Shown here: positions 194 through 2,109 of the stretch, piece after piece
Layout: each line of letters opens with the position of its first letter
Position numbering within the stretch: the first letter of the stretch is position 1
Virus record (IMG/VR): IMGVR_UViG_3300006924_000076
Span: 1 to 34,828 of that record
Strand: one strand, 5' to 3'
Source: a virus
Length of the DNA: 34,828 nucleotides
Made by a program: the position numbers and the translations under genes
Notes under the pieces: model-generated
The model's database searches: none
Told to the model about the DNA's origin: nothing
Seen by the model: only the letters and a program-made list of their open reading frames with translations

Positions 194-218
194 AGAGAGG
201 GTCATTCCTCTCTTTTTT
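194..218 (+). terminator. rho-independent terminator
   Basis: A 7-bp perfect stem (AGAGAGG 194-200 with CCTCTCT 207-213) with a 6-nt loop is followed at once by five more T residues. This is the classic intrinsic terminator form on the + strand, and it closes the transcription unit containing the 30-residue ORF. Confidence 0.8.
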
Positions 219-223
219 GTGAC

Positions 224-250: not shown

Positions 251-300
251 TGGTATCAATTAATACCATTATTCGTTAAAAAACGTTTTTAAATGGTATT
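251..300. repeat. nested AT-rich inverted repeats
   Basis: Three inverted repeats overlap here: TGGTAT (251-256) with ATACCA (263-268); AATACCATT (262-270) with AATGGTATT (292-300); and, inside the latter, CGTT (274-277) with AACG (282-285). The middle arm can pair either left or right, so two alternative structures exclude each other. The segment is very AT-rich and lies beside the DnaA-box-like repeats. Confidence 0.65.
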
Positions 301-307
301 ATAAATA
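300..307 (+). promoter_or_regulatory. T4-type late promoter-like TATAAATA
   Basis: An exact match to the T4 late-promoter consensus TATAAATA, which in T4 is read by RNA polymerase carrying the gp55 sigma factor and the sliding clamp. No gene starts within 300 bases downstream, so it would make a long leader or a non-coding transcript. In AT-rich DNA an 8-mer match can arise by chance. Confidence 0.35.
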
Positions 308-327
308 TAACTTGCTATTTTATAGTG

Positions 328-391
328 TTATTCACATGTCTGTGGAAAAGGTATCATTTATCTGTGGAGAAAGGTATATTTCTGTGGATAA
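328..391. repeat. tandem ~21-bp repeats with DnaA-box-like cores
   Basis: Three tandem units start with TCTGTGGA at 339, 361 and 381. Their cores are TGTGGAAAA (341-349), TGTGGAGAA (363-371) and TGTGGATAA (383-391), spaced 22 and 20 bp, about two helical turns. TGTGGATAA is the exact reverse complement of the bacterial DnaA box TTATCCACA. TGTGGAAAA is the reverse complement of TTTTCCACA, the form I recall for cyanobacterial origins. A fourth, inverted core TTATTCACA (328-336) differs from the box at one base. DnaA binding is inferred. Confidence 0.6.
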
Positions 392-413: not shown

Positions 414-471
414 GTGATCAATTAAATGTCTCATAGTCCCTTCATTTGTGATCAATTAAATGTCTCATAGT
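414..471. repeat. 24-bp direct repeat, two perfect copies
   Basis: Positions 414-437 and 448-471 are identical over 24 bases. Each begins GTGATCAATTAAATG and ends TCTCATAGT, with a 10-bp spacer, giving a 34-bp period. Each copy contains the palindrome TGATCA. The first copy also takes part in a hairpin (TTAATT 407-412 with AATTAA 420-425). The repeat lies upstream of the promoters at 574 and 594, consistent with a regulator-binding site, though no regulator gene is in view. Confidence 0.75.
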
Positions 472-573
472 GCAGTGATCTAAGCGAGCACTCTATCACG
501 ACCGCGCAGAAATGTCAAGGGGGCGCTCATAAGTTTTTCCAGGGATTGACAACACAAAAATATCAGTGTTTCT

Positions 574-581
574 TATAAATA
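574..581 (+). promoter_or_regulatory. T4-type late promoter (TATAAATA)
   Basis: An exact TATAAATA, followed by C, lies 70 bp upstream of the ORF at 652. It immediately precedes a sigma-70 promoter for the same gene, so that gene may be read both early and late. Confidence 0.5.
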
Positions 582-593
582 CTCTCTGGAAGA

Positions 594-622
594 TTGACAA
601 TATCACTCAGGCATTCTATACT
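594..622 (+). promoter_or_regulatory. sigma-70 promoter, TTGACA-N17-TATACT
   Basis: A perfect -35 box (594-599), a 17-bp spacer and TATACT as -10 (617-622, 5/6 to TATAAT). The expected start of transcription near 629 gives a leader of roughly 22 nt for the ORF at 652. This form is read by the host housekeeping sigma factor, as expected for phage early genes. Confidence 0.75.
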
Positions 623-651: not shown

Positions 652-828
652 ATGTCAGTCGCTATCAGTCAGGCACAGAAGCAACGTTATAGAATCACCC
701 TGGATTTAGAGGTGATGGAAGACTTCAACCCGCATAATATTGATTGGGAAACTCTCTTTGAAATGGAGGGAAATGAGCAGGTAATTGACAGCTACGTAGA
801 GGACCTGAGTAATCCTGTCCGGTGGTAG
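652..828 (+). CDS. conserved-type cyanophage small protein, 58 aa
   Basis: ATG (652) to TAG (828). The product starts MSVAISQAQKQRYRITLD and ends with a DLSNPVRW tail. It is acidic in its second half and shows no membrane segment or named domain. A consensus sigma-70 promoter ends 29 bp upstream and a late promoter lies 70 bp upstream, which supports it as a real gene. The opposite-strand frame across this stretch is a shadow. It resembles small hypothetical proteins I associate with T4-like cyanophages, but I cannot give a function. It may be an early host-interaction protein (inference). Confidence 0.75.
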   Translation: MSVAISQAQKQRYRITLDLEVMEDFNPHNIDWETLFEMEGNEQVIDSYVEDLSNPVRW

Positions 829-1341: not shown

Positions 1342-2109
1342 ATGGCAAAAGGATTTACTGTAAAGGCCAATGCGCCCACCAAGAAGAAAGAAGAGTGGGA
1401 CATTGCAGCAATCAAAGAGAGAATGAAAGGTAAGACAATTGTATTTTGTTTACCAGGACGTGGATGTTCGTTCACATTTCTGAAGAACTTTGTACAACTG
1501 TGCTTTGATATGGTACAGAATGGTATGAGTATTCAGATCAGTCAAGACTACTCATCAATGGTTAACTTTGCAAGATGCAAATGTTTAGGAGCAAATGTAT
1601 TACGCGGACCGAACCAAATTCCATGGGATGGTAAGTTAGAATATGATTATCAGTTATGGATTGATAGTGATATTGTATTTGACACTAACAAGTTCTGGCA
1701 GTTGTGTGACTTAAGTGTTCCTGCAGAGGGTGAAGAGCGTGGCATTACTGCAGGTTGGTATGCAACTGAAGATGGTGTCACAACATCAGTCGCACATTGG
1801 TTAGAAGAAGAAGAGTTCCGTACAAATGGTGGAGTGATGAATCACGAAACTGTCGATTCTATCCAGAAGCGTCGGAAGCCCTTTACTGTTGATTATACAG
1901 GATTTGGATGGGTCTTAATCAAGAAGGGAGTATTTGAAGAAATGGAATACCCATGGTTTGCACCTAAGATGCAAGTCTTTGAGAGTGGGAGTGTACAAGA
2001 CATGTGTGGTGAAGATGTCTCATTCTGCTTAGATGCCAAAGAGATGGGTTATGATATTTGGTGTGATCCACGTATTCGTGTGGGTCATGAAAAGATGCGT
2101 GTTATTTAA
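1342..2109 (+). CDS. GT-A-fold glycosyltransferase-like protein, 255 aa
   Basis: The likely role is sugar transfer from a nucleotide-sugar, with acceptor unknown. After a charged N-terminus (1-30), a first beta-strand reads KTIVFCLPGRG (31-41), where GT-A enzymes begin their nucleotide-binding fold. A DSD motif flanked by hydrophobics (LWIDSDIVF, 105-113, Asp108 and Asp110) fits the metal-binding DxD of family 2-like transferases. A TGFGW segment (186-190), a GED (223-225) and a late His (249) fit the usual downstream acceptor/base and metal-ligand positions. There is no signal peptide or membrane segment. It has its own perfect promoter. The fold assignment rests on motifs only; virion or host-surface modification is inferred. 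Confidence 0.6.
   Translation: MAKGFTVKANAPTKKKEEWDIAAIKERMKGKTIVFCLPGRGCSFTFLKNFVQLCFDMVQNGMSIQISQDYSSMVNFARCKCLGANVLRGPNQIPWDGKLEYDYQLWIDSDIVFDTNKFWQLCDLSVPAEGEERGITAGWYATEDGVTTSVAHWLEEEEFRTNGGVMNHETVDSIQKRRKPFTVDYTGFGWVLIKKGVFEEMEYPWFAPKMQVFESGSVQDMCGEDVSFCLDAKEMGYDIWCDPRIRVGHEKMRVI

Follow-up and report, generated by a model that had tools for sequence, protein, structure and literature searches.

Host-type DnaA-box arrays in a non-coding gap of T4-like cyanophages, a candidate transcription-activated replication origin

Introduction

In E. coli, datA is a titration site for DnaA that consists of a compact box cluster, and control of transcription by DnaA is established in bacteria. To our knowledge, phage T4 starts its replication independently of host DnaA. 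The T4 origins depend on promoters and R-loops (oriF/oriG), oriE has 12-nt iterons that are conserved at syntenic positions of T4 relatives, and the T4 review that describes them nowhere mentions DnaA (PMC3016281). The consensus of the T4 late promoter is TATAAAT (PMC3037559). The ori region of phage lambda has the promoter pR and the leftward promoter pO, with DnaA boxes downstream of pO (PMC3985674). In cyanobacteria, the published DnaA box is TTTTCCACA (PMC4674748).

We analysed a 34,828-bp viral DNA fragment, called the window throughout, which is less than a whole genome; statements on whole genomes are therefore drawn from complete relatives instead. A gap of ~520 bp (131-651), located between a small ORF (38-130) with a terminator and a conserved 58-aa ORF (652-828), holds four DnaA-box-like 9-mers within 64 bp (328-391). 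Like datA, this cluster is compact and could, by analogy, bind several DnaA molecules; unlike datA, it is phage-borne and associated with an AT-rich element and promoters. With lambda ori the gap shares divergent promoters, a predicted short leftward RNA and boxes downstream of the leftward promoter, although in lambda transcription is tied to origin activity and here the likeness is one of sequence only. It also differs from lambda, where the iterons of a dedicated initiator (the O protein) lie inside the O gene, in being non-coding, in belonging to a T4-like phage with its own replisome, and in arrays that are phased at 20-22 bp or otherwise laid out. The likeness to T4 origins lies in the T4-like phage itself, in a promoter adjoining an AT-rich element and, as at oriE, in evenly spaced repeats, but these repeats are host-type DnaA boxes and are exchanged for other repeats in relatives. 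As at the cyanobacterial oriC by dnaN (PMC4674748), TTTTCCACA boxes stand next to AT-rich DNA and, in the tandem phage arrays, are mostly oriented towards it; the host, however, has a CCTACTACTACT trio run that is missing from the phage gap, and the host boxes are not in phased tandem arrays. In the literature searched, which covered papers outside subscription, we found no earlier report of such arrays or of an origin candidate for these phages.

Results

The array and its neighbourhood in the window

The records closest to the window are S-SM2, Bellamy and SynMITS9220M01 (Kyanoviridae, T4-like), in agreement with an earlier note, made from the sequence, that attributed it to a cyanophage. 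That note had also described three tandem cores at 22- and 20-bp spacing together with an inverted core, one of the E. coli type and one of the cyanobacterial form, beside nested AT-rich inverted repeats. All of these were recovered (Table 1): positions and start-to-start spacings of the cores are exactly as it gave them, and the outer palindrome arms (TAATACCATT, 261-270, and AATGGTATTA, 292-301) are 100% complementary and enclose an inner palindrome, TTAAAAAACGTTTTTAA, at about 276-292. Relaxed boxes (TTNTYCACA, both strands) occur six times in the whole window, four of them in 328-391. Of 300 dinucleotide shuffles, 285 had no cluster larger than one box and 15 reached two, never more. A chance cluster is ruled out by these shuffles and by the conservation in relatives.

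Table 1. Features in and around the gap (window coordinates)
Position	Strand	Feature	Remark
194-219	+	Intrinsic terminator, rightward, behind the small ORF (38-130)	Bounds the gap on its left
261-301		Nested AT-rich palindromes	Candidate unwinding element; low duplex stability
300-307	+	TATAAATA	T4-type late-promoter-like; adjoins the AT-rich palindromes
328-336	+	TTATTCACA	Inverted DnaA-box-like
341-349	-	DnaA box TTTTCCACA (TGTGGAAAA on +)	Cyanobacterial form
363-371	-	TTCTCCACA (TGTGGAGAA on +)	Degenerate box
383-391	-	DnaA box TTATCCACA (TGTGGATAA on +)	E. coli form
414-437, 448-471	+	Two copies of GTGATCAATTAAATGTCTCATAGT	Second repeat family; 1-4 copies in relatives
475-520	-	Conserved element with leftward sigma70-type promoter	-35 TTGACA 518-513, spacer 17, -10 TAGAGT 495-490
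574-581	+	TATAAATA	Late-promoter-like; nearly invariant among relatives
594-622	+	Rightward sigma70-type promoter TTGACA-N17-TATACT	Ahead of the 58-aa ORF
652-828	+	Conserved 58-aa ORF, phrog_12516	Family without assigned function; anchor for finding homologous gaps
1342-2109	+	255-aa protein, phrog_1574	Glycosyltransferase annotation in some relatives

The two small ORFs flanking the gap match only families of unknown function, and no phage initiator was recognised in them, such as one that, in the manner of lambda, binds dedicated iterons within or beside the gene that encodes it. No tRNA or known structured RNA scored above threshold. Beyond the 255-aa gene follow a gene with a ferredoxin or purM annotation and then the baseplate genes gp25, gp6 and gp7. 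Two further observations concern this neighbourhood. A sigma70 promoter with a perfect 12/12 consensus (TTGACA-N17-TATAAT, 1290-1318) stands directly upstream of the glycosyltransferase-like gene, and the next gap (829-1094) contains a very strongly conserved motif, CCCTAACCTACAGAGGTGACA (1004-1024), which is found in 113 of 153 relatives; G/T-rich sequence and a promoter of the sigma70 type (888-916) precede it.

Enrichment and layouts of the boxes in relatives

The glycosyltransferase-like gene (255 aa, phrog_1574) served as anchor for the enrichment test, in which the 2.5 kb upstream were taken as the upstream region at 143 non-redundant loci. Exact TTWTCCACA boxes number 137 in 235 kb upstream and five in 501 kb downstream of this gene; when the loci that owed their detection to boxes (L040, L060, L085, L088, L105 and L120) are excluded, the densities are 0.515/kb and 0.010/kb, respectively. 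Among the loci that were not chosen for boxes and have at least 1 kb upstream, 41 of 108 carry a box cluster. The commonest layout is a homologous cassette of ~85 bp, composed of an inverted box, 4 bp, and direct boxes 20-22 bp apart. Since its spacers are also fairly conserved (identity 0.78, where the two box units that played no part in selection have 0.83-0.88), the cassette by itself would support the boxes only weakly. Strong evidence comes from the non-cassette layouts, which to judge by their sequences have little in common except the box: three to five dispersed boxes (L199, L152, L154), box hairpins (L156, L163), seven boxes (L120, L085) and an inverted pair (P-TIM68). The hairpins are perfect and paired (TGTGGAAAA-loop-TTTTCCACA, two times) and lie at L163:2500-2576 and L156:85-159; those of L163 come just after the 58-aa ORF, that is, in a different gap from that of the window's array. 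Two boxes 307 bp apart in S-SSM7 are located within genes in another part of the genome and were excluded from the arrays.

In the complete genome of S-SM2, the array gap is the largest non-ORF gap (520 bp) and the neighbouring gap the second largest, and the only tandem pair of exact boxes sits in the former. The search for further clusters proposed in the earlier note returned no other tandem exact-box pair in that genome. The same data bear on the idea that the boxes are a decoy which titrates host DnaA as phage copies increase, whatever the layout and neighbours, with the effect that host replication initiation would be shut off and nucleotides spared. The freely varying layouts (tandem, dispersed, hairpins, seven boxes), in which the high-affinity sequence is kept, favour a decoy and count against an origin, and two to seven sites multiplied by many phage copies would make many sites. 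Clusters are, however, restricted to a single region, while in S-SM2 as many as 13 non-ORF gaps measure 150 bp or more, an argument that is weakened by the large non-coding share of that region but still stands, and in the tandem arrays the distance to the AT-rich element is nearly constant. Our literature search found no paper on box decoys in lytic phages, and we regard a decoy as quite unlikely.

Host DnaA as the likely ligand

In the upstream regions of the relatives, TTTTCCACA outnumbers TTATCCACA by 98 to 18, whereas it is the rarest of the four TTNTCCACA forms in three complete phage genomes overall. The same form makes up 22 of the 23 boxes upstream of dnaN in picocyanobacteria, with none within dnaN, and DnaA domain IV, the box-binding domain, is encoded in all five picocyanobacterial genomes examined. 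This shared preference, the presence of domain IV in the hosts and the published box together make host DnaA the likely ligand of the array. The upstream regions hold several exact host-consensus boxes, far above chance, as expected of a host-type cluster; with the right consensus, the strong positional enrichment and layouts that share only the box, the assignment as host-type DnaA boxes is, at the level of sequence, well supported.

The repeats might instead bind another protein, of phage or host, whose site resembles a DnaA box by chance. In relatives without the array, other repeats occupy this place, where another factor may thus act. It would then be a coincidence, though, that several layouts prefer the host form TTTTCCACA, and the two adjoining small ORFs, from families of unknown function, name no candidate binder; we consider this explanation highly improbable.

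The AT-rich element, the promoters and the leftward transcript

In the tandem arrays, the least stable 50 bp lie ~30-70 bp from the first box, at a near-constant distance; in some dispersed arrays they lie elsewhere. In S-SM2 and Bellamy, the AT-rich element ranks with the least stable DNA of the genome, yet it is not the least stable site there. The earlier note had taken the arrangement for the usual one of a DnaA origin with an unwinding element. What holds of this is that the boxes adjoin AT-rich DNA of predicted low stability, and the match to an oriC/BUS-type origin goes as far as this adjacency and low stability. A run of DnaA-trios such as CCTACTACTACT, which most host regions upstream of dnaN show, is absent from positions 1-651 by inspection, by which degenerate trios could escape. 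GC skew, a check suggested in the same note, lends no support either: in three complete relatives there is no inflection at the gap, and the skew is lower to its right, the opposite of a simple bidirectional origin, with gene strand bias and gene content as confounders.

The leftward and rightward promoters are divergent and stand back to back. The former (TTGACA-N17/18-TAGACT or TATAAT) is present at a fixed distance in 44 of 56 non-redundant loci, and three complete relatives each have a single copy of its element (475-520), located at this position. Leftward ORFs have a median of 30 codons, against 32 in shuffled sequence, and a protein-coding leftward transcript was rejected, the ORFs being no longer than in shuffles. 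The predicted leftward RNA would traverse repeats and boxes and then enter the AT-rich element. The gap sequence offers, as in a T4-type R-loop origin, a promoter whose predicted transcript enters a low-stability element and, as in a lambda-type origin, a leftward promoter with DnaA boxes downstream. An origin is favoured because this conserved promoter, which has no conserved ORF, reads through the array into the AT-rich element and because no other non-ORF gap of S-SM2 is as large; the confinement of the clusters to one region, the AT-rich neighbour and the conservation of the promoter point the same way.

The position of the boxes, downstream of the conserved leftward promoter and next to the late-promoter-like TATAAATA, would also suit a DnaA-responsive transcription switch, in which host DnaA would block or tune the transcript, or the read-through from the left, with no replication start at the gap; phage expression would in effect be coupled to the host DnaA level. 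Control of transcription by DnaA is known at lambda promoters (PMC3985674). Against a switch, a leftward RNA without a conserved ORF leaves no obvious gene to regulate, the rightward promoter is ~200 bp from the boxes, and both promoters are kept in array-less relatives. We judge a switch unlikely.

Patchy distribution and exchange of the array

The comparison of the same gap across relatives, also proposed in the earlier note, gave a mixed outcome: next to the 41 loci with a cluster, ~60% of relatives lack the array, Bellamy and SynMITS9220M01 among them. The array therefore cannot be required, which, like the GC skew, speaks against a simple origin. On the tree of the glycosyltransferase-like gene, from which L147, L169 and L200 were left out for their wrong upstream slices, the array needs 13 state changes, of which well-supported branches impose at least 11; recombination between this gene and the gap would also produce such a patchy pattern. 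Two loci, L229 and L246, are near-identical in the conserved promoter element and in everything to its right, but have unrelated sequences on its left. Four array-less gaps (L250, L269, L277 and L283) show by eye other G-rich repeats of roughly 11 bp (GAGTTACTTAG, GGGTATCTGGG, GTGTCTTCAGA) where the boxes would be. Contig ends, that of the window included, were seen to accumulate here: of 77 contigs, 26 end in the 400 bp that precede the 58-aa ORF and six downstream. The L229/L246 break and this pile-up, which assembly effects may cause, fit a place of frequent exchange.

A match to the gp59 helicase loader was found in all six phages examined; a host loader is then not needed in principle, which counts against an origin with DnaA. 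The idea that these phages need DnaA for want of a gp59 loader was dropped on the same result.

Discussion

Computation on these sequences shows the boxes, their enrichment and the form they prefer, an AT-rich element beside them, two divergent promoters, no conserved ORF in the leftward direction, and gain and loss of the array as a module. The earlier note had offered an origin, a decoy and a switch as options. Of these we prefer the origin, and we give an even chance to the reading that the gap 131-651 is a replication origin which is activated by transcription and has a module for host DnaA as an optional part, as its sequence suggests. Host RNA polymerase would initiate at the conserved leftward sigma70-type promoter (490-518), and the resulting RNA, which has no conserved ORF, would extend over the repeats and the DnaA boxes as far as the AT-rich element, where it would aid melting and possibly leave an R-loop primer. 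In array-bearing lineages, host DnaA on the boxes might stabilise the opening, modulate the transcript or help to recruit the helicase, and DnaA plays such roles at oriC and lambda ori. DnaA binding, RNA synthesis and origin activity at the gap are the parts of this scheme that we infer.

A wider proposal, which we offer tentatively and hold to be doubtful, is that T4-like marine cyanophages have one main non-coding origin region with an interchangeable initiator-binding module, either a host-DnaA array or other phased repeats, that is swapped by recombination at the leftward promoter. Array-bearing and array-less relatives that are near-identical on one side, such as L229 and L246, make a clean comparison possible.

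If the origin reading is true, these cyanophages have a candidate origin. A cluster that is kept, rearranged or swapped at the same spot suggests that the relatives use or hijack DnaA, perhaps for starting DNA copying. If widespread marine relatives do recruit or sequester DnaA, phage replication would be directly linked to the cell cycle of hosts that are abundant primary producers in the sea.
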